DNA of 44,366 nt, taken from NCBI GenBank assembly GCA_017449415.1, contig JAFSJO010000058.1:1-44366 (forward strand), in the 5' to 3' direction. The DNA comes from Synergistaceae bacterium. Lineage in GTDB: Bacteria > Synergistota > Synergistia > Synergistales > Aminobacteriaceae. The translations under genes were made by a program, and so were the position numbers. Below are positions 1 to 34,528 of the stretch, one piece after another (the first letter of the stretch is position 1; every line of letters begins with the position of its first letter). The notes beneath the pieces were generated by a model. It saw only the letters and a program-made list of their open reading frames with translations. It was not told the DNA's origin and searched no databases.

Positions 1-1245
1 ATGATGATCTCGCAGAAGGCTCCGTTTGCGTCGCAGGTTCGTGCTTTCACAAAGAAACTTCCGGGAATGGCGGGCGTAGTTTCAGAGATTGAAAAAGGCA
101 ACGCGGCGTTTGCTCTTCGTGTCGGAACTTTCGTAGCTGGCGGCCTGATGATCGCGGGGACTTTCGTGTTGAGCTTGCTATTCTTCTTCTCGAACTCAAT
201 TAGCGTGTTCCTGTCCGTTACGTCAGGTGTCTTGGCGGGTATCCTGATCGGGATCGTTACGGAGATCTACACGTCCGGCGATTATAAATTCGTGAAAGCT
301 GTCGCGGCCTCATCGAACACCGGCGCGGCTACCGTTATTCTTTCGGGCTTGTCGCTTGGCATGATGTCAACGGGGATTCCTGTCCTTTTAATCTGCCTCT
401 CGACCCTCATAAGCTATTATCTGGCTGGAATGTTCGGCGTAGCTGTCGCGGCTGTCGGTATGCTCTCAATCACGGGCATCTCGTTGAGCGTCGACGCTTA
501 CGGGCCTATCGCTGACAACGCTGGCGGCATTGCTGAGATGAGCGAGCTTCCCGAGGGCGTACGCAAGATCACAGACCACCTCGACGCTATCGGAAACACG
601 ACTGCGGCTATGGGCAAGGGCTTGGCTATCGGATCGGCGGCTTTGACGGCGTTGGCGTTGTTCGTGGCATATTCGCAGGCGGCCAAGATCGACAAGATCG
701 ACATCATGAACCCTTATGTAATCGTCGGCTTGCTTATCGGAGGCATGTTGCCTTTCATATTCTGCTCGCTGTCGATTGATGCAGTGAGCAAGGCTGCTGG
801 CGCAATGATCGAGGAAGTTCGCAGACAGTTCCGCACGATTACGGGCATCATGGAAGGCGAGGCCAAGCCGGATTATGAGCGTTGCGTTGCGATTTCGACC
901 CATGCGGCTTTAACTCAGATGATCGTCCCGGGTGTCATGGCTATAGTTGTTCCGGTGTTGGTCGGCTTCCTGCTCGGCAAAGAGGCTTTGGGCGGACTGC
1001 TCGGCGGCTCGATCGTTACGGGCGTTATGATGGCTCTGTTCATGGCGAACTCGGGGGGCGCGTGGGACAACGCAAAGAAGCACATTGAAGAAGGCAACTT
1101 TGGCGGCAAAGGCTCGGCCAATCATGCGGCGGCTGTCGTCGGCGACACGGTCGGAGATCCTTTCAAGGACACGGCTGGCCCGGCTCTCAACATTCTCATC
1201 AAATTAATGACCGTCGTGGCTTTGGTGCTTGCACCGCTGTTCTAG
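1..1245 (+). CDS. hppA: Membrane-bound cation-pumping pyrophosphatase, C-terminal part
   Basis: Hydrolyses pyrophosphate in the cytoplasmic membrane and pumps Na+ and/or H+ outward. The window opens inside the gene: about 414 residues remain, whereas the family runs to roughly 650-750, so the ATG at base 1 is almost certainly an internal methionine. Family signatures are clear: [12 protein letters not shown] (fragment residues 165-176), [10 protein letters not shown] (198-207), [10 protein letters not shown] (351-360) and [14 protein letters not shown] (381-394), with many hydrophobic helices between them. The alanine after GNTT, where K+-independent enzymes carry lysine, points to the K+-dependent subfamily, which includes the Na+ pumps. 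Pump ion specificity cannot be read safely without the missing N-terminal half. The stop codon TAG at 1243-1245 shares its G with the first unit of a heptamer array. Confidence 0.96.
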
Positions 1246-1272
1246 TGAGGAGTTAGAGGTGAGGAGTTAGGA
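1245..1272 (+). repeat. Heptamer array 1 (GTKAGGR x4) at the hppA stop codon
   Basis: Four in-phase 7-base units: GTGAGGA, GTTAGAG, GTGAGGA, GTTAGGA. The first G is the last base of the hppA stop codon. The 8-base word at 1259-1266 is perfectly complementary to 1283-1290, which holds the stop codon of the convergent minus-strand gene, so the junction can fold into a hairpin with a 16-base loop. There is no T-run, so intrinsic termination is uncertain. Confidence 0.85.
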
Positions 1273-1286
1273 ATGACTTATGCTCC

Positions 1287-2449
1287 TCACATCATCTCTT
1301 CGCACAGCGCGACGGCCTTGTCGACTACAATATCAGAGTTATAGTGCATGTGTTCGCCCCACCGACCAAGACCGTACACGTCGTGTCTTTCGCACTCACG
1401 AAGTAATTTGCTCATGATCTCGGGCTTGCCTGTCGTGTTCACGGGGTAGGCGTACTCGTTGAAGAAATTTTTATTTGATGTGTTTGTGTTGAACCTGTCG
1501 GCGTTTGTCTCCGTCCAGTAACCTTTGCTGTTCTCGCAGAAGTTTTCTCGCGCCAAAATTCTGTGAAATGATATCTCGTATTGCGGATAATAGACCCACT
1601 GCGCTTCGTTCTCATAACGCTCGGGAACATACTCAACGTAGATTGACGTGTGTTTAAGTTCTTGAATTGAACGCAAGACATCATCAGAGAGGCCGAGTAT
1701 TTCGTCGTAACTCTTCCATGGAACTGTCGTAACTATGATATCTCCCTCATATGTATCTCCGTTTGTTGTCCTGATCTTATGATTGTTCAAATCGAGGGCA
1801 TTTACTTTCTTGCTGAGGACGAGTTTATCGCCCAAAGCCTCTCCCGTTCTCTTCCATAGCTCGCCATAGCCAAATTTCTTGGGGTAATAAAAATTTGCAT
1901 GTCCGGGCTGCTTTGCGTGAGGCACGCGCTCGAGACATGAGCGAATAGTGTCAGAAAAGCTGACATCAGGGAGTTTATCGAGCCAATATGTCCCCAGCGT
2001 GTACAAATATTTGCTAAACATCTTTTCATTATAAGGGATCATATAGTCGTCGGCTATGCGATCACCCAACTTCCAGCGACACCACTCAGCGAACTTCTCA
2101 GGGCTTGGCGTTCCAATGTTACAGCCGGCCTTGGCGATTGACATATGTTAGCTTCTATCGGGTGATGGACATAACGATCATGAAGATATATTCTGCTGTC
2201 TCTCTCGAACAAATTCCACTCGCGCTCCGGCATGAAGCCGAAAAGAAAATCCAGAACGCGCTTGTTCCTCACGTCGAGAAAATGTCCGCCGCCCGTATCC
2301 AATGGGCTCCCATCAACGTTTTCACTTTTACAGAGCCCCCCAACTTCATCACACGCCTCCACTAGGAGGAAGACTTTTTCGCCAAATTGAAGCAGTCTGT
2401 TGGCAAACGTAAGGCCAGATGGGCCGCCGCCGATAATGATGTATTTCAT
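1287..2449 (-). pseudogene. FAD/NAD(P)-binding oxidoreductase, UDP-galactopyranose-mutase-like, frame-broken
   Basis: The N-terminal piece (2449 down to about 2150) starts with a Rossmann dinucleotide motif IIIGGGPSGL, then an E-x-x-D-E-V-G-G-L-C segment and PLDTGGGHFLDV, typical of FAD-dependent protoporphyrinogen-oxidase/UDP-galactopyranose-mutase-like proteins. The C-terminal piece (2144 down to 1287) lies in another frame and carries YMIPYNEKMF, a GDIIVTTVPW segment and a late VYGLGRWGEHMH that resembles the end of this fold. Neither piece alone is a whole enzyme. In the second frame a TAA lies just upstream of its ATG, and one missing base near 2145 would join them; a few residues may also be lost. 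It overlaps the upstream glycosyltransferase-like gene by four bases (ATGA), so it belonged to a translationally coupled glycan operon. A sequencing or assembly error is the main alternative to a real pseudogene. Confidence 0.75.
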
Positions 2450-3462: not shown

Positions 3463-4581
3463 ATGAGCAAAATATACTTGATGTCGCGAGACGATTACGG
3501 AGCTGACGGAATGAGGTCGGCGGTGTCCGAAGCGTTTTCGAGGTTCGGTGTCGATATAACAAGCGGCGAAAGAGTATTGTTGAAAGTCAACCTTGTGAGC
3601 GGTCATGATGTCGCGAGGCGGGTTACGACAGATCCGGCGTTGGTGCGTGCGGTTGCGTCGTATGTGTTGAGCCGTGGCGGCGTTCCGATGATATGCGACA
3701 GCCCCGGCATAGATAATTTTCGAGCTGCGGCCACGAAGGCGGGCTTTATGTCAGTGGCGAGTGAGCTAGGCATAGAGTGCAGTGAGCTTGTCGACCCCGT
3801 AGACACGACCAGAGGAACGGACTTTCACAAGATCGCGTTGAGCCGCAAAGTGTTGGAAGCGGATAAGGTCATCAACCTGCCCAAGCTGAAGACCCACGGC
3901 CAGATGTACATGACGGGGGGCGTAAAAAATCTCTTTGGCTGCGTGCCCGGTCGCCTGAAAGCCGGCTGGCATTACAACGTAGGGCTGAACCGTGAGAAAT
4001 TCGCGGGTCTGTTGCTGGATATCTACGCGACAGTCAAGCCCGCGCTTACGATAATTGACGGTGTAATCGGCCAAGACGGTAACGGCCCGACGAGCGGCGA
4101 GCCTTACAACTTCGGACTGATCGGAGCAAGTCCCGACGCGCTGACGCTGGATTTCTGGCTGTGTCGCATGATGGGCGGCTCACTTGATGATTATCCGCTG
4201 TATCGAGCGGCCGTGTCGCGTGGATATTCCGAGTGTAAGCTAGATCCTGCTGACGTTGAAGGAGATTTTGACTCCGAGCACAGATTTGAGGGAGTGAAGT
4301 TCCCGAAGACTCGTTCGATGAGGCTGTTGCCGCCGTTGCCGTTCCTAGAGAGGCTGATGACCTCGCGGCCAGTGCATATTCCGGATCGCTGTATCGGCTG
4401 CGGACGTTGCGAGGCTGTGTGTGCGGCTCACGCGCTGAAACATGAAAACAGAAAGCTACATTTCGATTATTCCAAGTGCATACGCTGTTATTGCTGTCAT
4501 GAGATGTGCCCGGTCAAGGCGATAGAGTTCAAGGAGAGCGCGTTGCTGTCGCTGATGAACAGGTTAGGAGTGAGGAGTTAA
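3463..4581 (+). CDS. DUF362 domain protein with C-terminal 2x[4Fe-4S] ferredoxin domain
   Basis: 372 residues. Residues about 35-290 form a DUF362 domain: KVNLVSG near the start, CDSPG, the lysine-rich KLKTHGQMYMTGGVKNLFG (about 140-158) and a late GASPDALTLD. The last 70 residues hold two ferredoxin-type cluster motifs, CIGCGRCEAVCAAHAL and CIRCYCCHEMCPVKAI, enough for two [4Fe-4S] clusters. No signal peptide, so cytoplasmic. DUF362 proteins are common in anaerobes but have no established reaction; a redox or electron-transfer role follows only from the ferredoxin domain. The start ATG at 3463 has a strong GGGAGGGG ribosome site 8 bases upstream. The C-terminal residues (LGVRS) and stop are encoded by heptamer array 2. 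Confidence 0.88.
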   Translation: MSKIYLMSRDDYGADGMRSAVSEAFSRFGVDITSGERVLLKVNLVSGHDVARRVTTDPALVRAVASYVLSRGGVPMICDSPGIDNFRAAATKAGFMSVASELGIECSELVDPVDTTRGTDFHKIALSRKVLEADKVINLPKLKTHGQMYMTGGVKNLFGCVPGRLKAGWHYNVGLNREKFAGLLLDIYATVKPALTIIDGVIGQDGNGPTSGEPYNFGLIGASPDALTLDFWLCRMMGGSLDDYPLYRAAVSRGYSECKLDPADVEGDFDSEHRFEGVKFPKTRSMRLLPPLPFLERLMTSRPVHIPDRCIGCGRCEAVCAAHALKHENRKLHFDYSKCIRCYCCHEMCPVKAIEFKESALLSLMNRLGVRS

Positions 4582-4650
4582 AAGACGGTGAGGAGTTAGG
4601 AGTGAGGGGTTAGGGGTCATAAATGATAAGTGAGGAGGTAGGAGGTAGTA
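4563..4650 (+). repeat. Heptamer array 2, 88 bases, spanning a gene end and the next ribosome site
   Basis: Units in order: GTTAGGA, GTGAGGA, GTTAAAA, a 4-base interruption (4584-4587), GTGAGGA, GTTAGGA, GTGAGGG, GTTAGGG, GTCATAA, ATGATAA, GTGAGGA, GGTAGGA, GGTAGTA, then ATG at 4651. The 7-base phase holds through the degenerate units. The first units are codons of the DUF362-ferredoxin gene and the last ones (GAGGAGGTAGGAGG) are the ribosome-binding site of the next gene. Confidence 0.9.
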
Positions 4651-4965
4651 ATGTGGTTCGCTAAGAAAGTTACGATATATAAGAAGAAAGATAAACAGAC
4701 GTGGCAGAAAATCAAAGACGTGCTCAGAGAGACAGGCTTGAAAGGTGTCCGGGCAAGTCATTATCCGATTGATAGCCTGAACGCCTGCGGCTGCGGAGCA
4801 AAGGTAGACCCGCGTAACTTCGGCTCGGGCGGGCATATCGACAGGCACGTCTATTTCGTCGACGTGAGGCTCGAAGACGAGAGCCGCGCCAAACATATTC
4901 TGTCCGAACGCGGAATTGAAACTTTCGTTGACCCCGACCCCATGGGCAAGACAGGGAGGATTTAA
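4651..4965 (+). CDS. Small conserved-looking protein, DUF2007-like
   Basis: 104 residues, unknown function. It starts MWFAKKVTIYKKKD, has a central NACGCGAKVDPR cysteine cluster (CGCG) around residues 45-55, then HVYFVDVRLEDESRAKHIL and a VDPDPMG end. The beta-alpha-beta pattern, with a late 'residues drift to E..AK.IL' helix, resembles small DUF2007-type putative signal-transducing proteins that often follow redox genes; this match is by eye. The two cysteines could bind metal or form a disulfide. The ribosome site is the end of heptamer array 2, and the CGGC gene follows 2 bases after the stop, so it is very likely co-translated with its neighbours. Confidence 0.75.
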   Translation: MWFAKKVTIYKKKDKQTWQKIKDVLRETGLKGVRASHYPIDSLNACGCGAKVDPRNFGSGGHIDRHVYFVDVRLEDESRAKHILSERGIETFVDPDPMGKTGRI

Positions 4966-4967
4966 TC

Positions 4968-5384
4968 ATGATTGACGATTCGCCGGAGCTTGTTGTTATC
5001 ATTCAGTGCGAAGATGTCGTGAAGAGATGCTCGGGCTTTCTGTGCATGAGCGACTTCTACGAGAAGCTCGGAAAGTTCACGGGCTACGCGGACGAGACGC
5101 GCTACATGGCCATAACCTGCGGCAGCTGTTGCGGAAATCTGCTGACCCCCAAGCTCGAAAATCTCGGAATGAGGCTTCGCAAAGCCGGTATCAGCAAGGA
5201 CGATGTAACTGTTCATTTCGCGTCATGCGTGTGTTCAGACAACGCTCACCGTCAGCCCTGCCCGTTCATGAACAGAATGAGAGCGTTGCTAAATCGCAAG
5301 GGCTTCAATAACATCGAGCTAGGCTCGCATATCTCGCAGAAAGCTGAGGCCAAGCGGCAAGCGGGGATCTATAAACAATGGTGA
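4968..5384 (+). CDS. CGGC domain protein, putative metal-binding redox protein
   Basis: 138 residues with the layout of the CGGC domain family. The N-terminal part has IIQCEDVVKRCSGFLCM (three cysteines, with C-x7-C-x4-C-like spacing), then ITCGSCCGN near residue 50, where the family has its CGGC signature, and ASCVCSDNAHRQPCPF in the last third. The nine or so cysteines suggest a metal or cluster site; the family has no proven activity. Cytoplasmic. It sits 2 bases after the small DUF2007-like gene and before nhaC, in what looks like a redox/ion operon. The stop codon TGA (5382-5384) is inside the first unit of heptamer array 3. Confidence 0.85.
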   Translation: MIDDSPELVVIIQCEDVVKRCSGFLCMSDFYEKLGKFTGYADETRYMAITCGSCCGNLLTPKLENLGMRLRKAGISKDDVTVHFASCVCSDNAHRQPCPFMNRMRALLNRKGFNNIELGSHISQKAEAKRQAGIYKQW

Positions 5385-5408
5385 GGAGTGAGGGACTGGG
5401 AGTGAGAT
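5381..5408 (+). repeat. Heptamer array 3 (4 units, partly degenerate)
   Basis: Units GTGAGGA, GTGAGGG, ACTGGGA, GTGAGAT. The first contains the TGA stop of the CGGC gene. Orientation is that of the upstream gene. Confidence 0.75.
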
Positions 5409-5478: not shown

Positions 5479-6999
5479 TTGTGCAAGAGACCCGGTCTTT
5501 CACTTTCGATTTTTGTGCTTTGTATTAGCGCGTTAATAGTAACGTTCGGTGTTGTCGATGTTGAGCTGTCGAGCGGCTCGCATTTTGGCCTAGGATTGCC
5601 GGCGCAGGTTCCTTTGTTGTTCGCGACGATCTTCGCGGCACTCGTGGGAGTGTTCTGGCTCCATCAGAGCTGGGGAGACCTCGAAAAAGGCATGGCGGGC
5701 GCGATCCAAGTCTCGATACAGGCCATAATAATTCTGGTGTTGGTGGGCTGTCTGGTCGGCTCGTGGATACAGAGCGGCGTTGTCGCAACGATGATATATT
5801 ACGGCCTCGAGGTCATGACCGCGCGATATTTCTACCTAGCTTCGTTGATCATAAGCGTCGTTGTTGCGCTTGCCACCGGCTGTTGCTGGACAACTAGCTC
5901 AACCGTCGGGGTCGCATTGATCGGCATCAGCGCAGGTCTTGGCCTCCCGTTGCCTGTAACAGCTGGCTTCGTGATCTCCGGCGCATACTTCGGCGACAAG
6001 GTTTCTCCCCTTTCCGACACGACAAACTTAGCTCCGGCAGTCTCCGGCAGTGAGTTATTCGAGCATGTCAGGGCAATGATGTACACGACGCTCCCGACGC
6101 TCTTGATCACAGCCGTGATAGCTTTCTTCATGGGTAGCTCCGCGCATGGCTCTGACGGTGGCCGCATAGCCTTGATACAGAACATGATGGAAGCTGAATT
6201 TAACATTTCGCTGTGGGCTTTCATTCCGCCTCTGATAATTTTGGTTATGGCCTCGATGAAAATCCCTGCGATCCCCGGCATCGTCGCGGGCATCATGGGT
6301 AGCCTTGTCTTATCGCTCGTTCGCGGCTCAACACCTCACGCAACACTCGAAGTCTTATTCTCCGGCTACGTGCCCGAGTATCTCGGAAAGTTCGCCGAAG
6401 TCGCAACCCCCGAGGCAATGAGCGGCTTTATGCAGACATTCTCGCAGTCCGTTGACGTAACCCCGGAGGTCTTCTCGCAGGTCGGCGGCCTGTTGACTCA
6501 GCTTTTCACTCGCGGCGGCATGACTTCAATGTTAGAGACTATATGCCTGATCGTGGTTGCGCTGTCGCTTGGCGGCATCATGGAGGTTTGCGGCTTCCTC
6601 GATGTGATATTGGAGGCTCTCATGCGGCACGTCAAGTCCGTAACTGGTATAATAGCTTCCGTGTTGGCATCGGCCTTTATGGCTAACGTGTTCCTGAGTG
6701 AGCAGTATCTCTCTATCATCGTACCGGGTCGAATGTTCAAGCGAGCTTTCGATGATACAGTGTGGCCCAATGGCAAGAAGCTCGCTCCCGTTATGCTCTC
6801 GCGATCACTCGAAGACAGCGGCACAATGACTTCCGTTTTAGTCCCATGGAACACATGCGGCGTATATGTCAGCTCTGTTCTTGGTGTCGCTACGCTCGAT
6901 TATCTGCCTTATTGCTTCACGAACTGGCTCAATCCATTCGTAGCTCTTGCATTAACCGCGTTGGGCATTGGTATAATATGGAAAGACGACAGTGATTAG
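5479..6999 (+). CDS. nhaC: NhaC-family Na+/H+ antiporter
   Basis: 506 residues, polytopic membrane protein of the NhaC family, exchanging internal Na+ for external H+ (some members exchange carboxylates). Family marks seen: TGCCWTTSSTVGVALIGI (about 133-150), the conserved ISGAYFGDKVSPLSDTTNLA (about 166-185) and the C-terminal LEDSGTMTSVLVPWNTCG near residue 450. The start chosen is TTG at 5479, with GAGAGGAAG about ten bases upstream; the ATG at 5471 is in another frame. Together with the pyrophosphatase and PutP-type symporter nearby, it suggests a Na+ cycle across the membrane. The stop TAG at 6997-6999 runs into heptamer array 4. Confidence 0.9.
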   Translation: MCKRPGLSLSIFVLCISALIVTFGVVDVELSSGSHFGLGLPAQVPLLFATIFAALVGVFWLHQSWGDLEKGMAGAIQVSIQAIIILVLVGCLVGSWIQSGVVATMIYYGLEVMTARYFYLASLIISVVVALATGCCWTTSSTVGVALIGISAGLGLPLPVTAGFVISGAYFGDKVSPLSDTTNLAPAVSGSELFEHVRAMMYTTLPTLLITAVIAFFMGSSAHGSDGGRIALIQNMMEAEFNISLWAFIPPLIILVMASMKIPAIPGIVAGIMGSLVLSLVRGSTPHATLEVLFSGYVPEYLGKFAEVATPEAMSGFMQTFSQSVDVTPEVFSQVGGLLTQLFTRGGMTSMLETICLIVVALSLGGIMEVCGFLDVILEALMRHVKSVTGIIASVLASAFMANVFLSEQYLSIIVPGRMFKRAFDDTVWPNGKKLAPVMLSRSLEDSGTMTSVLVPWNTCGVYVSSVLGVATLDYLPYCFTNWLNPFVALALTALGIGIIWKDDSD

Positions 7000-7023
7000 T
7001 GAGGAGTTAAAAATCCCTAACTC
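6999..7023 (+). repeat. Heptamer array 4 with a small hairpin
   Basis: GTGAGGA and GTTAAAA follow the nhaC stop, sharing its G. GAGTTA (7004-7009) can pair with TAACTC (7018-7023) around an 8-base loop. No T-run follows. Confidence 0.65.
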
Positions 7024-9567: not shown

Positions 9568-11025
9568 TTGGATATACAGGAAGTAAGCGTATTTATAATT
9601 TATCTGGTCTTTATGCTCGGCATAGGGGTGTGGTTTTTCTTCCGCGACAAGACCCAAACCGAGCGGGGATATTTTCTTGGCGATCGCAAGATGGGGGCGT
9701 GGGTAGCTGCACTCTCCGCCGGAGCTTCGGACATGAGCGCGTGGGTTCTCATGGGCTTGCCGACCTCGATATATGCGCTCGGGCTTGGTCAGATTTGGAT
9801 CGCTGTCGGGCTTGCGTTAGGTTACTCGCTTAGCTGGATTTACGAGGCTTCAAGGCTTCGTTCGTTCTCGATAGTCGCAGACGACTCAATCACGATACCT
9901 CAGTATCTCACGAACCGTTTCAAGTCTGACTCCAAGACGCTCCAGCTCATCTCGGCGGCTGTGTTCCTGGTTGCGTACACGATCTACGCGGCTTCGAGCA
10001 TCAAGGCCTGCGGGACGCTGTTCAACACCGTAACGGGCATCGACACCACGATAGCGATGTATCTGGCGGCTGTGATCGTCATAAGCTACACGTTTTTGGG
10101 CGGATTTTCAGCCGTCTCATGGACGGATTTCTTTCAGGGAATGTTAGTCTTGGCGGCGATGCTGATAGTTCCGATAGCGGCGGCAACGATGCTTGAACCG
10201 GGCGCGAGCGCGTCAATCGACACTCCCAACTATTGGAACCCCGTTGCTAACTGGAAGGACATAGTTTCGGGCTTCGGCTGGGGTCTTGGATATTTCGGAA
10301 TGCCTCACATAATCATTCGCTTCATGTCGATAAACTCGCAAAAGGAGCTGAAAAAGTCCGCCAAGATCGGCATATCGTGGACGCTCATTATATTAACGTT
10401 CGCTGTGTTTGTCGGAGTTGTCGGGCGTATGTTCATCGGCTTCGACGAGACCGTCAATAACAACTCGCTTGTGTTTGTCGTGATGACGCGCAGAATTTTC
10501 CCGGCCTTGATTTCGGGCGTGTTGCTCTCGGCTGTCCTTGCGGCGGCGATGAGTACGGCTGACAGTCAGCTTCTCGCGGCGGCCTCAGCTTTTGCGTCGG
10601 ACGTTTACCGCCCTGTGATCCGCAGGAATAACGTCGGCAACAGCGAAATGATGTGGGCGAGCCGTGCAGTCGTTCTGGTTATCTCTTGCGTGGCTCTGTA
10701 TATAGCTTCGCGGCCTGACGCTGGCTCTATAATGTCGCTCGTCTCAAACGCGTGGGGAGTTTTCGGCGCGGCTTTCGGGCCTGCGATACTGCTCAGTCTC
10801 TTCTGGAAGCGTTTCACGTTCTCGGGCGCAGCGATGGGGATCTTCGCGGGTGCGGCTGTCGACATGGCGTGGCTCTCGTGTATGGCCGACTCCGGAATTT
10901 ACGAGATAATCCCGGGCTTCGTAGCCGGTCTCGTGGTTGCGGTGGTGGTGTCGTTGCTCTCGCCGAAGCCGTCGAAGGAAGTTGAGGAGTTGTTTGACAA
11001 GGCTGTAGCCATGGCCAACGAGTAG
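9568..11025 (+). CDS. putP: Sodium:solute symporter, PutP (proline) type
   Basis: 485 residues of the sodium:solute symporter family, closest by eye to the Na+/proline symporter PutP. Seen: FFRDKTQTERGYFLGDRKMG, AALSAGASDMSAWVLMGLP (about 45-63, Na+-site helix), SSIKACGTLF, YTFLGGFSAVSWTDFFQG and AAAMSTADSQLLAAASAF (about 325-342). About 13 hydrophobic helices and a short charged tail. Start is TTG at 9568 with AGGAG ten bases upstream, behind a good extended -10 promoter. It imports proline or a related solute using the Na+ gradient that the pyrophosphatase and NhaC would maintain. Substrate is an inference from family resemblance. Confidence 0.88.
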   Translation: MDIQEVSVFIIYLVFMLGIGVWFFFRDKTQTERGYFLGDRKMGAWVAALSAGASDMSAWVLMGLPTSIYALGLGQIWIAVGLALGYSLSWIYEASRLRSFSIVADDSITIPQYLTNRFKSDSKTLQLISAAVFLVAYTIYAASSIKACGTLFNTVTGIDTTIAMYLAAVIVISYTFLGGFSAVSWTDFFQGMLVLAAMLIVPIAAATMLEPGASASIDTPNYWNPVANWKDIVSGFGWGLGYFGMPHIIIRFMSINSQKELKKSAKIGISWTLIILTFAVFVGVVGRMFIGFDETVNNNSLVFVVMTRRIFPALISGVLLSAVLAAAMSTADSQLLAAASAFASDVYRPVIRRNNVGNSEMMWASRAVVLVISCVALYIASRPDAGSIMSLVSNAWGVFGAAFGPAILLSLFWKRFTFSGAAMGIFAGAAVDMAWLSCMADSGIYEIIPGFVAGLVVAVVVSLLSPKPSKEVEELFDKAVAMANE

Positions 11026-11035
11026 CGCGTCAATA

Positions 11036-11070
11036 GTGAGGGGTGAGGAGTTAGGAGTGAGGAGTGAAAG
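11036..11070 (+). repeat. Heptamer array 5 (5 units)
   Basis: GTGAGGG, GTGAGGA, GTTAGGA, GTGAGGA, GTGAAAG, beginning 11 bases after the putP stop codon and in the same orientation. It is followed by two inverted units (CCCTAAC CCCTAAC, 11078-11091). Confidence 0.88.
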
Positions 11071-11098
11071 AATTAACCCCTAACCCCTAACTTTTTTT
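11050..11098 (+). terminator. Intrinsic terminator of putP built from heptamers
   Basis: The direct units at 11050-11065 pair imperfectly (three mismatches; the outer six pairs GTTAGG/CCTAAC are perfect) with the inverted units at 11076-11091. Seven T residues follow at 11092-11098. Confidence 0.65.
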
Positions 11099-11149
11099 CT
11101 TTATGGTTATCACATCACAACACATTCACACTTTCAGAAGATTCTTTGC

Positions 11150-11178
11150 TTGTTAAACGCCCGTTAAGATTGTAGAAT
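11150..11178 (+). promoter_or_regulatory. Probable promoter of the rny operon
   Basis: TTGTTA (11150-11155), a 17-base spacer, TAGAAT (11173-11178) with TG just before it. The gap 11026-11281 holds, in order, heptamer array 5 and its terminator, this promoter, and a roughly 95-base leader with no other clear motif. Confidence 0.55.
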
Positions 11179-11281
11179 TTTGCGGTGTGCCAAAATTCGG
11201 GATAAGCGATATAAAATTTCAGCCCCCCTTTGTTTTGGGAAATATAGATTTCAAGATAATTCAGAAAGGATAATATTCATT

Positions 11282-12811
11282 ATGCAGTTTGTGTTGGCAT
11301 TGGTATTTTTCATGGCCGGCTCGGGAGTCAGCTACGCGGCCTTGAAAATATGGGATAACTCACGCGTCAACAACGCGGACAGACAGATAGCGAACCGGCT
11401 CACCGCCGCCGAGGAACGCGAGGAGCATATCAAGCAGTCAAAGATTTCAGAAGCTCGTGAGGAAGTCAGCCGCCTCCGTCAGGAAGCTCAGAAAGACATC
11501 AAAGAGCGACGAAACGAAATCCAGCGCACGGAGCGAAAGCTCGAACAGAAAGAAGAAAATCTCGACAAAAAGATCGACCGCGTCTCACGCAAAGAAGACG
11601 AGCTACGCAACAAGCACGAAGAACTCGAAAAACGTCGTGCCACCCTCGAAGATACCATTCAGAAACAAGAAGAAAAACTTCAGGAAATCGCCGCAATGAC
11701 CAAAGAGCAGGCCGTCGAAGTCCTTTTGCTGAGGACTGAGCAGGACGCTAAACACATGCTCGGCATGAAATTAAAGGAACTCGAAGAACGATCCGCACGC
11801 GAAGCCGAGAAGAAAGCCCGCGACATCATCATCGGAGCCATGCAGCGTTGTGCCGTCGAGAGTGCAGGTGAGAGCAGCATCAGCGTCGTTCCGCTCCCGT
11901 CCGAGGAGATGAAAGGCCGCATCATAGGGCGCGAGGGTCGCAACATTCGCACATTCGAGAGCCTTACTGGCGTAGATTTAATCATTGATGACACCCCCGA
12001 AGCCGTAACTCTGAGCTGCTTTGATCCCATAAGGCGCGAGATAGCCCGCCGAGCTATGGAGCGTCTCGTGGTCGATGGTCGTATTCACCCAGCTCGCATT
12101 GAGGATCTAATCGAGAAAGCTGCTCGGGACATCGACGAAGAGATGATCACGGAGGGCGAGAATGCAGTACTCGAAATGGGCATCAAGAACATGAATAACG
12201 AACTCATGAGGACGCTCGGGCAATTGAAATTCCGCTTCAGCTACGGCCAGAATGTTTTGGCGCATAGCATGGAGGTGGCTCAGATAGCCGGGATCATTGC
12301 TGCGGAGCTTGGCCTCGATGAAGAGACTGCACGACGCGGAGGACTTCTCCACGACATTGGCAAGGCCATAGACAGACAGATCGAAGGCCCCCACGCTGAG
12401 ATAGGCGCGGATCTTGCCAAGAGGCTCGGTGAGCGTCCCGAGATAGTGAGCTGTATCGCAAGCCATCACAATAATCTCGAAGTCAATTCGATCTATGAAG
12501 TTATCGTGTCGGTAGCTGACGCTATCAGCGCGGCAAGACCCGGGGCACGTCGTGAGAGCCTTGACGCTTACATAAAGAGGCTCGAAAAGCTCGAAGAGAT
12601 CGCTCAGAGCTTCGAGGGCGTTACGAGAGCTTATGCCATTCAAGCCGGGCGCGAGGTTCGAGTGATCCTCAATGCCGCCAAGACTGACGAAGACTCCGTT
12701 CACAAGCTCGCTTTCGATATCGCCAAGCGCGTTGAAGCTGAGCTTAAATATCCCGGACAGATAAAGATCAACGTAACTCGCGAAACCAAAGCAACAGAAT
12801 TTGCGAAGTAG
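11282..12811 (+). CDS. rny: Ribonuclease Y
   Basis: Membrane-anchored endoribonuclease that initiates mRNA decay. From the ATG at 11282 it is 509 residues, normal for the family. Order: an N-terminal membrane helix (residues 1-22), a long charged coiled coil (about 35-180), a KH RNA-binding domain with KGRIIGREGRNIRTFE (211-226), and an HD phosphohydrolase domain with histidine 328 in AHSME and the LLHDIGKA metal motif (355-362). Open frame extends upstream to 11180, but the extra residues are not family-like and would place the start almost on the promoter. Six bases later comes ymdB, its usual partner. Confidence 0.97.
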   Translation: MQFVLALVFFMAGSGVSYAALKIWDNSRVNNADRQIANRLTAAEEREEHIKQSKISEAREEVSRLRQEAQKDIKERRNEIQRTERKLEQKEENLDKKIDRVSRKEDELRNKHEELEKRRATLEDTIQKQEEKLQEIAAMTKEQAVEVLLLRTEQDAKHMLGMKLKELEERSAREAEKKARDIIIGAMQRCAVESAGESSISVVPLPSEEMKGRIIGREGRNIRTFESLTGVDLIIDDTPEAVTLSCFDPIRREIARRAMERLVVDGRIHPARIEDLIEKAARDIDEEMITEGENAVLEMGIKNMNNELMRTLGQLKFRFSYGQNVLAHSMEVAQIAGIIAAELGLDEETARRGGLLHDIGKAIDRQIEGPHAEIGADLAKRLGERPEIVSCIASHHNNLEVNSIYEVIVSVADAISAARPGARRESLDAYIKRLEKLEEIAQSFEGVTRAYAIQAGREVRVILNAAKTDEDSVHKLAFDIAKRVEAELKYPGQIKINVTRETKATEFAK

Positions 12812-13614: not shown

Positions 13615-14703
13615 ATGAAAATTCTTCATTACGTCGACGAGAATAATCTCTCGTGGGCACGGCCTTACCTTCAAATTTTGAGGGAGCTTGAGAGCTTGGG
13701 CTGTGATGATGTCGTCGTGTGCCGACCCGGCGGGACGCTCGCGAACCTGCTGAGAAGTTCCGGCCTCAAAGTCGTTGAATATAAGCCCGTGATTTCGTCA
13801 TTGCCGTGGCTTGACGTTGGATTTCGTGATGTTCTGTGCGCGTTGAAGCCCGATATCATTCACACGCGGCTCTCGTCGGCGGCGAACATTGCGGGATATT
13901 GGGGACGGAAGCTCAAAATTCCTGTCCTTGCCACGATAGATAAATTCCCCAAAAGAAAATATTACGAGAACGTCTCGCAGCTGTTGCCATGTTCCACGCC
14001 GGTAGCTGACTTCATGGCCGCTCAGGGCATCTCGAAATCTAAAATGACGGTCATTCCCAACGCTGTCGATGTTGGATTTTACGCGAGGGATTTCAAAATC
14101 CGCAACGAACTTCGAGGGCGCGAGGGTTTCGCTGACGGTGATATATGCTTCATTGGCGCGGGACGCTTCGTAGATTGGAAAGGCTTTGATGATTTAGTTG
14201 CGGCGTTCTCTGAGTTTCTGAAAGGTCAGACAGTCCCGGAAAAGTTCTCCTTGTGGCTTGCAGGAGACGGCCCGGAGCGTGAAAAGCTCGAAGCTCTCGT
14301 TCAAAAATTAAATCTCAATGAGCGAGTGAAGTTCTGGGGCTTCGTCGAGGACGTGAGGCCGCTGCTGTGGGCTTCGGACATATATATTCACCCATCGTGG
14401 GGCGATGAGGCTTTCGGGCTTAGTCTTCTCGAAGCTATGGCCTCGGGGCTTGCTGTCGTTGCCTCAGAGAGCGGCGGCATGATGGAGATATTGAACGACG
14501 CGCAAGGACTTTTGTTCCCACGTCGCGACGTAACGGCACTCTCCGAGCGCATGAACACGGCCATAAAAAGAGCTGACGCACTAACCAACGCCAGCATATT
14601 ACGAGCAAAAGATTTCGACGCAAAGATCATCGCGCAAAAGACTTTCGAGACTTACGCAACATTCGCGAGGAGCAGTCTTCAACTCCTAACCCCTCACCCC
14701 TAA
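13615..14703 (+). CDS. GT4-family glycosyltransferase
   Basis: 362 residues with GT-B fold. N-terminal domain has an IIHTRLSSAANIAG segment; the C-terminal nucleotide-sugar domain (from about residue 180) carries FIGAGRFVDWKGFDDLV, LAGDGPEREKLE, VKFWGFVEDV, IHPSWGDEAFGLSLLEAMA (the E-x7-E site) and VASESGGMMEIL. Typical of retaining glycosyltransferases that build LPS core or O-antigen. The KDO genes lie just downstream on the other strand, consistent with LPS work. The final residues (LLTPHP) and stop codon are encoded by heptamer array 6, so the natural C-terminus has probably been replaced or extended by the repeat. Confidence 0.9.
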   Translation: MKILHYVDENNLSWARPYLQILRELESLGCDDVVVCRPGGTLANLLRSSGLKVVEYKPVISSLPWLDVGFRDVLCALKPDIIHTRLSSAANIAGYWGRKLKIPVLATIDKFPKRKYYENVSQLLPCSTPVADFMAAQGISKSKMTVIPNAVDVGFYARDFKIRNELRGREGFADGDICFIGAGRFVDWKGFDDLVAAFSEFLKGQTVPEKFSLWLAGDGPEREKLEALVQKLNLNERVKFWGFVEDVRPLLWASDIYIHPSWGDEAFGLSLLEAMASGLAVVASESGGMMEILNDAQGLLFPRRDVTALSERMNTAIKRADALTNASILRAKDFDAKIIAQKTFETYATFARSSLQLLTPHP

Positions 14704-14711
14704 CTCCTAAC
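14684..14711 (-). repeat. Heptamer array 6 (4 units) holding the stops of two convergent genes
   Basis: On the plus strand TCCTAAC, CCCTCAC, CCCTAAC, TCCTAAC; on the minus strand GTTAGGA, GTTAGGG, GTGAGGG, GTTAGGA. The TAA of the plus-strand glycosyltransferase (14701-14703) and the TAG of the minus-strand ELM1-like gene (14709-14707) are both made of repeat bases. Confidence 0.9.
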
Positions 14712-15768
14712 TGTTCAAAATCCATTCGGCGGCTCGCTTGGCTTCGTTGAAGTCCTTGTGATGCTTCTGTTCGTCCGCGCCTAGAAAGTCGCTGAAGTTC
14801 GACGTGCGTCCCAAGTCCGCGACTAAGTCCCTAGCTTTCATCTCCTCGAACATTTCATCAAATTTCTTGGTTCCGTAGCCGAGAGATTTTTTCAACGCGC
14901 TCGTAACTCTCGGAACTCTCAGCAGTCCAACCCTGAAGCCAGCCGTAGCAGCCTCCGAGACCATCGAGACACTGTCTTCAGTAACAAGAACATGCGTAGC
15001 GATCCCGAGCATTGCCGTAACCGCGTTGACCTTGGGATTTCTCGACAGTATCAAGATATAACCCAGCGACGAGTATGACGAGAAGAGGTCTTCAACCTCC
15101 CGTTCCAAGTCTTCTTCGGTGCGCCGCGAGGTCGTGAGCAGCAACGTAGAGTCCTTGAATTGCTTCAGACCTCCCAAAACTTCAGAAGCCCACCGAGCGT
15201 CAGGCTTGTAATTCGAGTCGCTGCCTCCGATCAGCACAGCAACGATTTTCTTTTTGAAGTTTCTGTGTCCAAAGAAAGTCTCCGCGGCCTTTTCAGCTCC
15301 TTCGACGTGAATGTGATTGGGTGCGCCAAGCGTCGTGAGAATTTTAGGATCGTTAGGATCGTGGGGATCGTGGGCAGGGATTATTGCGTAATCAAAAGGT
15401 TTAATTCCCAAAATACTTGGGGTCATGATGACGGCGGATTTGTTGCCGGTCGCTTTCGCGAGTGCCAGACAGAACGGCGCGGCGGAGCTTCCAGCGGATA
15501 TAAACAGCGTGTCGGCTCGAAATTTCTTCGACTGTATCCCGAACGAATGGAGCCATGTTCGAGAGTAATCCGGGCCTTTATCCGGGATTTTGCGGCCTGC
15601 GAGCTTTAATTTCAAAATTTTTTTGAGGCTCGAAATCTCCGGCAGCTTGACGGGATCTGCCACCTCGACATTCCCAAGCCGCCCGAGCCACTCCGCAATG
15701 CCCAGCGACTGGTGATAATGTCCGCGTATGTTATCGCTGACTATGACAACATGCTTAAACTTCGGCAT
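14707..15768 (-). CDS. ELM1/GtrOC1-family protein, putative LPS glycosyltransferase
   Basis: 353 residues resembling the mitochondrial-fission ELM1 family, whose bacterial members sit in LPS loci and are thought to be GT-B-like. Seen: an N-terminal GHYHQSLGIAEWLG, LFISAGSSAAPFCLALAK (about 88-105), IIPAHDPHDP, VAVLIGGSDSNYKP (about 175-188), LLLTTSRRTEEDLE and VTEDSVSMVSEAATAGFRVG (about 265-284). The last motif fits the nucleotide-sugar site of GT-B folds. It overlaps kdsB by 14 bases, so it is translated from the KDO operon, supporting a role in lipid A-KDO or core assembly. Activity is inferred. Confidence 0.82.
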   Translation of the reverse strand: MPKFKHVVIVSDNIRGHYHQSLGIAEWLGRLGNVEVADPVKLPEISSLKKILKLKLAGRKIPDKGPDYSRTWLHSFGIQSKKFRADTLFISAGSSAAPFCLALAKATGNKSAVIMTPSILGIKPFDYAIIPAHDPHDPNDPKILTTLGAPNHIHVEGAEKAAETFFGHRNFKKKIVAVLIGGSDSNYKPDARWASEVLGGLKQFKDSTLLLTTSRRTEEDLEREVEDLFSSYSSLGYILILSRNPKVNAVTAMLGIATHVLVTEDSVSMVSEAATAGFRVGLLRVPRVTSALKKSLGYGTKKFDEMFEEMKARDLVADLGRTSNFSDFLGADEQKHHKDFNEAKRAAEWILNS

Positions 15769-16492: not shown

Positions 16493-16527
16493 TCCTACCT
16501 CCTACCTCCTACCTCCTAATTCCTAAC
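16493..16527 (-). repeat. Heptamer array 7 (5 units), variant GGTAGGA
   Basis: On the minus strand GTTAGGA, ATTAGGA, then three copies of GGTAGGA, between the kdsD stop and the kdsB start. It begins 5 bases after the kdsD TGA, and its last unit is the kdsB Shine-Dalgarno. The G-for-T change creates AGGAGG, a perfect anti-16S match, in every unit boundary. Confidence 0.9.
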
Positions 16528-16532
16528 TGAAA

Positions 16533-18350: not shown

Positions 18351-18387
18351 TTCTTCATTATTAAGAATGAGGAATCAGGTTTTCAAC

Positions 18388-18415
18388 TCCTAACTCCTCA
18401 CTCCTAACTCCTCAC
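18388..18415 (-). repeat. Heptamer array 8 (4 units) after the aldolase stop
   Basis: On the minus strand GTGAGGA, GTTAGGA, GTGAGGA, GTTAGGA, starting 4 bases after the fba stop and reading in the fba direction. Confidence 0.88.
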
Positions 18416-18419
18416 TGAC

Positions 18420-28582: not shown

Positions 28583-29899
28583 ATGAACAGTGTTATTGTA
28601 TCCAAGTTCGGCGGGACGGCTCTGGCTGACGCTGAAAGAATAAAAGAAGTTGCTGAAGTCATAAAATCAAACCCGGATCGACGCTACGTCGTCGTTACTG
28701 CGCCCGGCAAGCTCACGCCCGACGACATCAAGATCACGGATCTTCTATACATATGCTACTCGCGCTACGAGAACCGCGAAAACTTCATGGAGATCCTGTC
28801 CACCGTTCAGAGCCGCTTTGAGGCTATCGTCGGAGGACTTGGGATAACGTTCGACCTCGCCTCGGAGTTCTCGAACATCAAGAAAGATTTATTCTTTGGC
28901 AAGGGTAAGGACGCAACCGCGAGCCGGGGCGTGTATCTCATGGCGAAGATATTGGCGGCGTATCTAGGCTGGGAGTTCGTTGACTCGTCGAAGGTGATCC
29001 TCCTCAACGCTGACGGCTCACTCAACGAAGATCAAACCTCGCTGGCAATCTCCAACGTGCTTCAGAAAGTTCAGCACGCTATCATTCCGGGAGGCTTCGG
29101 GATCGTCCCCAACACTCAGAAGCTTCTTATGTCGAAAGGCGGCGGAGACGCTACGGGGGCTGTCATAGCCAAGGCGATCAAGGCCGACGTATTCGAGAAG
29201 TGGACGGAGCATAGACACATCTACATAGCTGACCCCTCGATAGTCCAAAATCCCGCGAAAATTCGCAACCTCACATACTCGGAGCTGATCGAGCTTACCT
29301 ACATGGGCATCAACGTCGTTCATGAAGATGTCCTGCTCATGTTGAAGAATATCGGCGTGCTGACGAACATTCGGAGCATTCACTACCCCAACGACGAGGG
29401 GACTTACATCTCCGCAACGCTGCCTGAGGGGACGGATCGAAAGGTCGCGGCTTGCGTGTCAGGTCGAAGGAATTTCAAGATGCTCAGGATCGAGAAGATG
29501 GGTTTGAACAAACTCCACGGGATCGGCGAGAAAGTCTTCGGAGCGTTCGCGCGGCGCGGGATATCGTGCGAGCATTACGTCTCGGGGATCTATCACTTCG
29601 CGGTCGTGCTCAAAAATCCAATGTTCGACATCAGGCGTCAGGAGATCCTCAACGACATCAGCAACGCCATCAAGCCCGACTCGATTACGATCGAGAAAAA
29701 TCTTTCGCTGGTTGCCGTCATAGGTGAGGGCATGGGCACGACGAAAGGTATCTTTGCGAAGATCTTCGACGCGATCGCCGCCGCTGATGTCAAAGTCCGG
29801 CTGACGGATCAGGGAGCCGACGACCTCAACATCATCATCGGAGTGTATGACGAGGATTTCGAGAAGACCGTCAACGCCGTCTATCAAGCCGTAATTTAG
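28583..29899 (+). CDS. lysC: Aspartate kinase
   Basis: Phosphorylates aspartate to open lysine, threonine and methionine synthesis. 438 residues, monofunctional. N-terminal kinase has VSKFGGTALADAERI (5-19; KFGG motif), IIPGGFGIVPN (about 168-178), MSKGGGDATGAVIA (about 186-199) and YTDPS-like YIADPSIVQNPAKI (about 218-231). The C-terminal portion, from about 300, holds two ACT domains for feedback control (RIEKMGLNKLHGIGEKVF and VAVIGEGMGTTKGIFAKIFDA). The length and type resemble clostridial aspartate kinases rather than E. coli LysC. Weak ribosome site (AGAGATGAAG). Probably the third gene of the folate operon but the gap of 44 bases leaves room for its own promoter. Confidence 0.93.
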   Translation: MNSVIVSKFGGTALADAERIKEVAEVIKSNPDRRYVVVTAPGKLTPDDIKITDLLYICYSRYENRENFMEILSTVQSRFEAIVGGLGITFDLASEFSNIKKDLFFGKGKDATASRGVYLMAKILAAYLGWEFVDSSKVILLNADGSLNEDQTSLAISNVLQKVQHAIIPGGFGIVPNTQKLLMSKGGGDATGAVIAKAIKADVFEKWTEHRHIYIADPSIVQNPAKIRNLTYSELIELTYMGINVVHEDVLLMLKNIGVLTNIRSIHYPNDEGTYISATLPEGTDRKVAACVSGRRNFKMLRIEKMGLNKLHGIGEKVFGAFARRGISCEHYVSGIYHFAVVLKNPMFDIRRQEILNDISNAIKPDSITIEKNLSLVAVIGEGMGTTKGIFAKIFDAIAAADVKVRLTDQGADDLNIIIGVYDEDFEKTVNAVYQAVI

Positions 29900-29924
29900 A
29901 TTAGGGATTAGACGATTTTTTCAT

Positions 29925-29973
29925 TCCTCACTCCTCACTCCTCACTCCTCACTCATTCCTGACTCCTCCTTCC
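29925..29973. repeat. Heptamer array 9 (4 perfect units plus degenerate tail), opposite orientation
   Basis: Plus strand shows four TCCTCAC units then TCATTCC, TGACTCC, TCCTTCC. Unlike most arrays it reads against both flanking genes. It lies 25 bases after the aspartate kinase stop. The rest of 29900-30009 holds an AAAGGAG ribosome site for galT and nothing else clear. Confidence 0.85.
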
Positions 29974-33426: not shown

Positions 33427-33437
33427 TGAGACAAAAC

Positions 33438-33451
33438 TCCTAACTCCTCAC
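33438..33451. repeat. Heptamer array 10 (2 units), opposite orientation
   Basis: TCCTAAC and TCCTCAC on the plus strand between trxA and the TRAP binding protein gene. Its orientation opposes both genes. Confidence 0.75.
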
Positions 33452-33474
33452 TAATCTTTCAAGGAGGCTTCACA

Positions 33475-34452
33475 ATGAAAAAATTTTTTGCGGCTTTGTT
33501 ACTGACGGTTTTGTTTGTTGCGCCTGCGGCGGCTGATGTCGTCCTTCAGCTCGGCTTCGAGAACTCGATGAGCGAACCTATCGGGCAGGCTCTGGCGAAG
33601 TGGCAGGAGCTTCTCGCGGCTCGCAACACGGGGCTGACGATGGAAATTTTCCCGGACTCACAGCTCGGCAACAAGACCGACCTCATCGATCAGATGCTTC
33701 TCGGCGAACCCGTCATGACACTCGCGGACGGCGCATTCTTCGCTGATTACGGCGTGCCGGACATGGGCATCGTCTTTGGGCCTTTCCTCTTCGCGAACTG
33801 GGACGAGTGCTGGAAGCTCATTCAGTCCGACTGGTGGAAAGAGCAGTGCGACAAACTCAACGCCATGGGCTTGAAGCTCGTTGCGGCGAACTGGGCTTAC
33901 GGCGAACGCCACATCCTCACGACCAAGCCCGTCAAGACCGTCGACGACCTCAAAGGACTTCAGATTAGAGTCCCGACCAACCAGATACAGACGAAAGGCT
34001 TTGAAGTTCTCGGAGCTACTCCCGTTGGAATGAGCCTCGGCGATGTCTACACGGCTCTCCAGCAGGGGACGATCGACGGCGGCGAGAACCCTCTCAGCAC
34101 GCTCTACGGACGCAAACATCACGAGGTCGCGAAGTATCTTATCCTCGATGGCCACGTCCTCAACTTCACGAACTGGATCTGCTCGTCAATGTGGTTCGAC
34201 AGCCTCACGCCCGAGCAGCAGAAAGCTCTTGTCGAGACGGGCTACGAGGCCGGAGTCTACAACAACGAGCTTCAGGCCAAGGCCAACGATTACTATCGCG
34301 GCTTGATGGAGAAAGAGGGCGTTACGGTCGTCGTACCTGACGAGGAAGTCTTGAACGGCTTCAGAGCGAAAGCTCAGGAGTTCTACAAGTTCGGCGATCT
34401 ATTTAAGTGGTCGGACGGTCTCTATGAGAGAGTCAAGGACGCGATGAAATAG
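33475..34452 (+). CDS. TRAP transporter solute-binding protein (DctP family), orphan
   Basis: 325 residues. Signal peptide MKKFFAALLLTVLFVAPAAAD. Periplasmic DctP fold: KWQELLAARNTGLTMEIFPDSQLGNK, LAGDGAFFADYG-like region (about 75-85), KTVDDLKGLQIRVPTNQIQTKG (about 158-179; the conserved Arg that binds the substrate carboxylate is R165-ish), GATPVGMSLGDVYTALQQGTIDGGENP. It binds a carboxylate or similar acid. No DctQ or DctM membrane partner lies nearby; a terminator follows. AAGGAGG precedes the ATG. Substrate unknown. Confidence 0.9.
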   Translation: MKKFFAALLLTVLFVAPAAADVVLQLGFENSMSEPIGQALAKWQELLAARNTGLTMEIFPDSQLGNKTDLIDQMLLGEPVMTLADGAFFADYGVPDMGIVFGPFLFANWDECWKLIQSDWWKEQCDKLNAMGLKLVAANWAYGERHILTTKPVKTVDDLKGLQIRVPTNQIQTKGFEVLGATPVGMSLGDVYTALQQGTIDGGENPLSTLYGRKHHEVAKYLILDGHVLNFTNWICSSMWFDSLTPEQQKALVETGYEAGVYNNELQAKANDYYRGLMEKEGVTVVVPDEEVLNGFRAKAQEFYKFGDLFKWSDGLYERVKDAMK

Positions 34453-34528
34453 TGAGGAGTTAGGAGTGAGGAGTTAGGAGTTAGGGGTGAGGAGTTAGGA
34501 GTGAAAAGACAATTCCTCATTCCTAATT
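34452..34528 (+). repeat. Heptamer array 11 (8 units) with inverted copies
   Basis: Units: GTGAGGA, GTTAGGA, GTGAGGA, GTTAGGA, GTTAGGG, GTGAGGA, GTTAGGA, GTGAAAA (34452-34507). The first G is the last base of the dctP stop codon. An inverted, degenerate copy (TTCCTCATTCCTAATT) follows at 34513-34528 and may form a weak hairpin with the array. The longest perfect array in the window. Confidence 0.93.

Follow-up and report, generated by a model that had tools for sequence, protein, structure and literature searches.

A dispersed AGGRRKK heptamer repeat at protein-gene stop codons of a Synergistaceae genome and its relatives

The window (the whole stretch of DNA analysed, 44,366 nucleotides (nt) of contig JAFSJO010000058.1 from a Synergistaceae bacterium) carries arrays of a G-rich heptamer at its gene junctions. 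These arrays were shown to belong to a dispersed repeat of about 40 nt, made up of a weak (T)TCA, a word of two purines and two keto bases (RRKK), usually four AGGRRKK units and an A-rich tail, and nearly free of C. The best-supported part of the analysis is this account of what the element is, namely dispersed, mostly of four AGG, oriented like the protein gene at whose stop it lies, inserted, and with its core kept. The explanation favoured here, with somewhat less than even confidence, is that of a dispersed stop-codon repeat which may be kept because it is active in mRNA at the place where ribosomes terminate.

The genome of the window, designated G000, comprises 1,904,719 bases; other G-numbers denote related genomes and L-numbers denote loci. 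The G000 sample consisted of 471,421 of these bases, picked by contig number irrespective of arrays, plus the window. The stretches of G025, G019 and G007 were partly picked around array matches, and are usable for placement while their densities are not estimates. Those of G009 and G020 were low-numbered contigs and orthologues of the window. All gene coordinates came from our own gene caller.

Unit and build of the element

Arrays of the unit first noted in the window, GTKAGGR, proved to occur well beyond it. Two tandem units gave 597 matches (344 + 253, overlaps counted) and three units gave 329 (188 + 141) in the 1.90-Mb genome, in which a control with the reversed pattern gave 71 and 10 matches, respectively. 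Among perfect tandem doublets with periods of 5 to 10 in the G000 sample, these motifs ranked in the top six only at period 7. A run was defined as AGG recurring every 7 nt at least three times with the other positions free, and under this definition the intervening four bases emerged as purine, purine, keto, keto without being required, with C rare. The preliminary description of the window had given the unit as exactly GTKAGGR; the 7-nt period stands, but the unit is variable, the array at 16493 being mostly AGGAGGT and that at 6999 containing fewer than two full units. AGGRRKK is the better notation.

The scan returned 68 runs in 471 kb of G000, 51 in 396 kb of G025 and 80 in 387 kb of G019, the two arms of a pair being counted as separate runs, and no run of three or more AGG at 7-nt spacing in the 156 kb of G009 scanned. 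Among these 199 runs the number of AGG was four in 126, three in 56 and higher in 17. Exactly four were present in 44/68 runs of G000, 29/51 of G025 and 53/80 of G019, with 18, 19 and 19 runs of three and 6, 3 and 8 runs above four in the same order. The leading RRKK words were AGTT, AGTG, GGTT and GGTG in G000, AGTT, AGGT and AATT in G019, and AGTG, AGTT, AATT and GGTT, plus AAGT, in G025. The arrays are flanked by the weak (T)TCA upstream and the A-rich stretch downstream.

Position relative to stop codons

The tie of the arrays to a stop codon, and to the strand of the gene that ends there, was confirmed genome-wide. The array start lay within 25 nt of a sense stop in 46 of 66 intergenic runs of G000, and in 34/47 and 53/69 intergenic runs of two related species (2, 4 and 11 runs within called genes being omitted), as compared with a chance of 9 % for intergenic positions and strands drawn at random in the G000 sample and 7-9 % over the three species. 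Because arrays in gaps of at least 120 nt hug the stop too (10/12, 8/9 and 6/7 arrays in the three species, against 2.5, 2.3 and 1.6 expected), their position is not merely a matter of space. Neither random placement with respect to stop codon and strand nor confinement to the window, the outcomes named beforehand as telling against the tie, was found in the genome or in the two relatives.

Roughly one in nine protein genes of the G000 sample has a run at its stop (45 of 388 complete genes); the corresponding counts in the array-biased stretches were 34/343 in G025, 49/340 in G019 and 44/327 in G007. No real array was found at 32 tRNA 3′ ends, as against 253 of 1398 coding gene ends when an identical, loose rule was applied over a comparable span. 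Three tRNA flanks were flagged by this rule, one of them 3′ and two 5′; the two flags in L360 are read as sequence of adjacent tRNAs, and that in L043 resembles tRNA sequence as well. Convergent gene pairs were dropped as a test of stop-hugging, the list of gene ends being itself conditioned on nearness; among the 10 convergent cases a sense stop lay within 26 nt in 10/10, and the stop of the other gene was also within 26 nt in 6.

At six loci of G025 (L083, L085, L096, L099, L100 and L101) and one of G019 (L313, near 6657), arrays adjoin or surround hairpins of the CCTGCC..GGCAGG and CACGCGC types, and different dispersed repeats appear to share insertion places there.

Insertion at existing gene junctions

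Most arrays are not shared between species. Reciprocal-best orthologues of G000 and G019 (71 pairs) had an array in the first only in 11 cases, in the second only in 6 and in both in 3; for G000 and G025 (35 pairs) these numbers were 2, 5 and 6, and for G000 and G009 (29 pairs) 9, 0 and 0. In several orthologue pairs a gap of -4, -1 or 3 nt faced one of 39-81 nt with an array, while in other pairs the array-free gap was equally long.

Two junctions were read across the genus, in each case in all 30 loci returned from the 41 genomes searched. Between fba and kdsA, the genes practically abut in 24 of 30 species, an array is present in 5 (G000, G007, G019, G025 and, with two AGG only, G020), and other sequence with a chance match is present in one (G013); the words of the arrays differ from species to species. 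On the 3′ side of the symporter gene, an intrinsic terminator was called by rule in 26 of the 28 species without a real array, including G033, in which a chance array flag lies inside the terminator, and was not called in G061 and G014. The two array species, G000 and G025, have no rule-based terminator at this place. No intrinsic terminator (a G+C-rich stem followed by a T-run) was called by rule in window positions 10900-11300, where the array of G000 is accompanied by a complementary arm and seven T.

The closest comparison was that of G019 with G007, which are about 94 % identical (background difference 6 %). Among 18 array loci of G019 in alignments, two have the whole element in G019 where G007 shows a short, plain gap, two others are shortened or replaced in G007, and the remainder are found in both genomes, in some cases with altered words; the comparison was set out from the arrays of G019 alone and therefore covers gains in that genome. 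One of these elements (L315, near 16061) is also absent from G020, which has the same short gap as G007, so the element was gained in G019. These comparisons show that elements arrive at pre-existing gene junctions by insertion.

When one inserted copy was used as a BLAST query, 42 matches were obtained in G019 and 44 in G007 (40/279 and 40/253 candidates scored), mostly of about 40 nt and reaching from the TTCAG to the A tail. A near-identical donor was not found in this search, in which two other places in G019 covered nearly all 89 nt of the copy at 78 %.

Arrays in the window

All eleven junction arrays first reported from the window were found again at their positions. Nine read in the sense of the gene just ended, the exceptions being those at 29925 and 33438, and the last G of a TAG stop is indeed the first base of the array at 1245 (hppA), 6999 (nhaC-type) and 34452 (TRAP DctP). 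The elements are as follows, z being that of the predicted RNA fold.

1245..1272 (+): array at the TAG stop of hppA (family H_PPase), a damaged unit standing before 1258-1272, with a short arm, CTCCTCAC, at 1283-1290; fold of 1243-1290, z -3.77
4563..4617 (+): two arrays flanking the stop (4579-4581) of a DUF362/ferredoxin gene, with AGGAGGT repeats further downstream, ahead of a start at 4651; no stable fold, z 0.11
5381..5394 (+): two-unit array containing the TGA stop (5382-5384) of a CGGC-domain gene; from positions, open reading frame (ORF) and family
6999..7012 (+): short array at the TAG stop of an nhaC-type antiporter gene; from positions, ORF and family
11036..11098 (+): four-unit array beginning 10 nt past the stop of a sodium:solute symporter gene, with a complementary arm (11074-11092) and T7 (11092-11098), where relatives have an ordinary terminator; z -1.78
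14684..14712 (-): four-unit array in which two convergent genes end, 14707-15768 on the minus strand, its stop contained in the array, and 13615-14703 on the plus strand, its TAA provided by the antisense TCCTAAC words; z -1.51
16493..16528 (-): AGGAGGT-rich array occupying the gap between an SIS/CBS-domain gene (16533-17510) and the next minus-strand gene; the orthologous gap is -4 in G019 and G020 and 3 in G009; from positions and orthologues
18360..18416 (-): four-unit array 3 nt past the fba stop and a complementary arm (18360-18379), in the fba-kdsA gap; predicted RNA helix of 20 bp, z -6.03
29897..29953 (both strands): weak sense arm (29897-29911, +), starting with the TAG stop of an amino-acid kinase gene, facing a perfect four-unit antisense array (29925-29953, -); unstable, z +1.07
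33438..33452 (-): lone antisense two-unit array, flanked by two plus-strand genes; z 0.04
34452..34528 (+): array of seven units, at the TAG stop of the DctP gene, and a complementary arm (34511-34528); predicted RNA helix of 18 bp, z -5.27

No Rfam RNA family matched the window above its gathering score. Elsewhere in the window, between 36001 and 38000, G+C falls to 0.47 and the plus strand has a strong purine skew (AT skew 0.21, GC skew 0.17). This region includes a DUF349 gene (36530-37972) with a 21-nt repeat at 37889-37928, the product of which might, at a guess, be a charged coiled-coil protein.

Conservation and variation of units

When one inner unit at a time was exempted from the requirement and then inspected, AGG was intact in 218 of 239 cases (42/46, 42/43, 23/25, 23/23, 44/57 and 44/45), and 8 of the 21 misses, in the set with 44/57, were AGT and are read as register artefacts of AGGAGGT arrays. 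At 11 of the 18 loci aligned between G019 and G007, the RRKK positions differed at 13 of 172 sites, all within their class (A/G at position 5 and G/T at position 6) and none out of class, and 3 of 129 AGG sites were changed. In the aligned loci, an exchange of G for T without one of T for C is not what mutation alone would give.

These data also bear on simple replication slippage of a Shine-Dalgarno-like heptamer, an origin in whose favour it can be said that in most genomes heptamers are more abundant than any other class of these repeats (Mrazek 2007, cited by PMC4679880 in its available text). The copy number peaks at four and is not open-ended. Identity of adjacent units was close to expectation (0.19 observed and 0.205 expected in G000, 0.103 and 0.147 in G025, 0.269 and 0.233 in G019), and the word order in G019 is fixed, with 0/2000 permutations reaching it; the order was weak in G025 (49/2000) and there was none in G000 (387/2000). 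Distinct sequences made up 38/42, 28/29 and 44/52 of the copies, and because copies are nearly all different and neighbouring units non-clonal, both slippage and a recent burst from a single master are disfavoured. Units can be gained or lost, as the one 7-nt length difference between G019 and G007 (L321) shows, but slippage as the main process is already contradicted by these observations and has next to no probability left as an explanation of the element.

Stops, reading frames and downstream starts

The unit had been described as a stop codon joined to a Shine-Dalgarno core. This was found to be partly so: the array often supplies the stop of the gene (30/45 in G000, 16/34 in G025, 22/49 in G019 and 18/44 in G007) and the AGG is near-invariant, but stop-free words, with GC at positions 6-7, exist and are used in G019 (13) and G025 (4).

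A further proposal made at that time, a fail-safe terminator placing translational stops in all three frames, found little to sustain it and is very improbable. TAG or TGA does occur in most units, GG at positions 6-7 is depleted (Fisher p 0.06, 0.013 and 0.004), and all three frames are stopped in 43/49 arrays of G019 and 38/44 of G007. In G000 and G025, however, this is so in only 23/45 and 11/34, and A at positions 6-7, which would give stops too, is almost absent. TGA is the leakier stop codon, yet stops lying ahead of the array are mostly TAA (9/15, 13/18, 23/27 and 22/26 in G000, G025, G019 and G007).

Re-initiation or coupling, also proposed, can hold for a few arrays only, as the next start lies within 22 nt past the last AGG in 5/44, 1/34 and 12/53 sense arrays; in these the array could directly be a ribosome-binding site.

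Pairing, quadruplex and protein binding

A hairpin had been suggested as one form in which the arrays might work, and some of them do possess the necessary arm, defined as two or more CCT complementary to the array. In its full form this explanation takes the element to be a hairpin, with the inverted second copy closing a stem by which the transcript is ended or protected, a role put forward for the short tandemly repeated repetitive (STRR) sequences of cyanobacteria. Sequence downstream paired with the array better than shuffled sequence did, its value lying below those of all 20 shuffles in 15/54, 18/45 and 22/62 arrays, predicted helices of 20 and 18 bp are present at 18388 and 34452, and an element replaces the terminator 3′ of the symporter gene. 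The 5′ arm has G at position 5 where the 3′ arm, read as its own array, has A (p 2e-8), so that G.U pairs would result in the sense RNA. The arm was, however, present in only 45 of 177 sense arrays, without locus-specific covariation (pairing score 0.761 for arms of the same locus and 0.787, standard deviation 0.019, for swapped arms), and the hairpin was rejected as the defining feature of the element. Only 3 of the 8 window elements that were folded, of 11, had z below -3, and several arrays stand between genes that abut in relatives, where a transcript end would be harmful. Sense and antisense duplex energies were set aside, as G/T-rich strands pair more readily regardless of structure. The arm is read as an optional second, inverted copy, and the hairpin as the general explanation is rather unlikely.

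Less probable again is a platform for an RNA-binding protein which reads GGA or AGG every 7 nt, for which CsrA would be the candidate present. The core motif of CsrA is GGA, CsrA was found in 41 of 43 genomes, and the arrays keep AGG while varying within purine and keto classes; against this, CsrA is equally common in array-free genomes, and a G at position 4 (49/194 in G000) disrupts GGA. The motifs of Hfq and TRAP also resemble the arrays, and each of these proteins was found in 0/43 genomes.

A G-quadruplex has been argued for the GGGAATC repeats discussed below, and four GG tracts are the minimum for a two-tier structure. Four tracts are also the commonest build, C is nearly absent, and a quadruplex was in the best predicted structure of 22/36 four-AGG arrays of G019. 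In other species such a structure was predicted only in 1/30 (G000), 0/17 (G025) and 10/35 (G007) arrays, the three-tier motif occurred in 0/177, and three-AGG arrays gain no fourth tract from their flanks. This reading is accordingly improbable.

Distribution and possible copying enzymes

A four-unit AGGRRKK match was present in 10 of the 43 genomes of the genus, with 259 matches (overlaps counted) in G000, 147 in G019, 128 in G007, 110 in G025, 88 in G065, 27 in G008 and 1-7 in four more. In a tree of fba from 30 species, which was based on this one gene with a midpoint root and did not include G065 and G008, the array-rich G000, G007, G019 and G025 fell in one part, with array-free species nested nearby. 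About 0.9 kb of a record of an uncultured Fretibacterium (L163), which bears an array of this type, was 75-79 % identical in DNA to G019 and G007, much as G000 is to G019 over the window; the genus may be Fretibacterium (Synergistota).

A reverse transcriptase (RVT_1), which would mark a retrotransposed or DGR-type element, was not found in G000, G007 or G019; it gave one match each in G025, G008 and G065, and 21/43 genomes were positive. Likewise, the transposase Y1_Tnp, of the type associated with repetitive extragenic palindromic (REP) sequences and known as RAYT, was not found in G000, G007 (75 % complete) or G019 (100 % complete); one match was obtained in G025 (partial) and one in G008, and 15/41 genomes were positive, G065 being outside this search. 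The copying enzyme is probably neither of the two.

Four-unit GTKAGGR also occurs beyond the genus, the matches listed comprising at least 80 loci, in groups including Cyanobacteria, Bacteroidota, Planctomycetota, Clostridia and Proteobacteria. Among these matches, 72 arrays had two flanking genes; the array start coincided with a sense stop in 30 of them, and the array end with an antisense stop in 5. A further 17 of 89 arrays were dropped as lying at locus edges, and simple ORF calling may place false gene ends inside arrays. Since a sense ORF is bound to end in an array of this kind, the safer count is that of stops situated ahead of it, which, tallied by eye among the loci listed, numbered 17 sense and 3 antisense.

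Several loci from outside the genus carry related or mixed repeats. In another family of the order (L036 and L037, from G037 and G046) a related array of GTGATKA and GTGAGGA heptads lies beside what is apparently the same gene. In a metagenome-assembled genome (MAG) of Thermoguttaceae from goat reticulum (L144 and L169), GTKAGGR arrays are paired in inverted orientation on either side of a common segment that contains a GCCGAAGGC hairpin, and the whole resembles a larger palindrome bounded by heptads. Different heptamer arrays adjoin one another in cyanobacteria and in one Bacteroidota MAG (L117, L123, L147, L154, L157 and L173), where GTTAGGA or GTGAGGG stands together with TAACTGA, GTGATGG, GTCAGGA, GGGCATT or TAATGAC.

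Possible function

Action in mRNA at termination is suggested by the restriction to protein genes, the strand, the keeping of AGG and its spacing, and the near absence of C. By the favoured explanation, a copy of the repeat of about 40 nt inserts at a stop codon, in the orientation of the gene ending there, and the array itself often supplies the stop. This would leave an unstructured stretch of purine and keto bases with Shine-Dalgarno-like cores, which could retain ribosomes that have just terminated, or seat them anew, where two cistrons meet, and an inverted second copy behind the array might close a hairpin able to replace the transcript end.

The main alternative is a purely selfish dispersed repeat without host function, for which hugging the stop is an insertion preference or reflects the only place tolerated. 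It agrees with the sporadic presence in 10/43 genomes, with clean presence and absence at two junctions of 94 %-identical species, and with words specific to each species, and a stop supplied by the array would render the insertion harmless. Tolerance alone fails to explain the stop-hugging in long gaps, although an insertion preference would explain it; the copies nearly all differ and have nonetheless kept AGG; and neither Y1 transposase nor reverse transcriptase was found in G000, G019 and G007. Overall it is a lesser but serious possibility, and a pure parasite preferring stop codons is nearly as likely as the favoured repeat active in mRNA.

Several points weigh against action at termination. 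The four-unit match is lacking in 33 of the 43 genomes of the genus, and only 18 of 131 sense arrays in total are within 22 nt of the next start. Similar arrays are present in Bacteroidota and Cyanobacteria, groups that make little use of Shine-Dalgarno pairing. Arms of the same locus pair no better than arms exchanged among loci. A C stands within the array at L315 5529, a locus left out of the G019/G007 count for a gap, and recombination among copies could also hold the words in class.

More broadly, and only speculatively, many phyla might share a class of C-poor, G-rich heptad elements which are directed to, and act at, sites of translation termination. Such a class would consist of post-stop mRNA elements read by the terminating ribosome or by a bound factor, with the four-AGG build and a dialect in each species as the form taken in this genus; this too is put forward with considerable reserve.

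Several genomes hold about 100 or more copies of strict build at the stops of protein genes, some of them recent, with readable empty sites and differences between sister species. Three questions thereby become testable: what copies the element, why the stop codon, and whether AGG spaced at 7 nt is read in mRNA. If the arrays do act at termination, they would represent a type of cis element new to the junctions of bacterial cistrons.

Comparison with known repeats

The open-licence literature searched yielded no description of AGGRRKK elements, nor any of heptamer arrays from Synergistota. The preliminary description had known of no heptamer arrays tied to stop codons, but stop-proximal ones on the coding strand are on record for Xanthomonas (PMC4692102). 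According to the available text of that source, GGGAATC and GGGGA(T/C)T repeats of Xanthomonas and Nostoc number about 90-190 per genome and are mostly intergenic, and like AGGRRKK they form G-rich heptamer arrays near stop codons on the coding strand. They differ in having tracts of three to four G and in lying also near start codons on the non-coding strand, and neither a fixed four-unit build nor insertion within operons, both features of AGGRRKK, was found described for them in that text.

The cyanobacterial STRRs share with the AGGRRKK arrays a 7-bp repeat, hairpins and sites within operons, and for examples such as that between hupS and hupL a role in transcript stability or translational coupling has been proposed (PMC2670836, in the part available). 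The GTKAGGR unit itself is also present in Nostoc and Calothrix among the matches listed. The copy number of STRRs varies, with as many as 10 exact units among the cyanobacterial loci listed, in contrast to the peak at four here.

The TAACTGA repeats of Beggiatoaceae are likewise short sets, mostly intergenic and found in distant phyla, with in-frame stops that limit overlap with gene ends, but as far as the available text goes they lie mostly just ahead of start codons and consist of one word without AGG (PMC4679880). Gmet_H4 of Geobacter metallireducens is made of four tandem heptanucleotides dispersed over 49 locations; its unit is GGGACCG, it also occurs inside genes, and no link with stop codons is stated in the part of the source available (PMC2700814). 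REP sequences and REPINs are similar in being short, dispersed and extragenic with single and inverted-pair forms, judging from the available part of PMC3116915. The AGGRRKK element differs from them in that RAYT was not found in three array-rich genomes, in being mostly without an inverted arm, and in being bound to strand and stop. Stop-proximal heptamer arrays on the coding strand are therefore known, and what is new is the fixed build of four AGG, the species-specific words and the insertion within operons.

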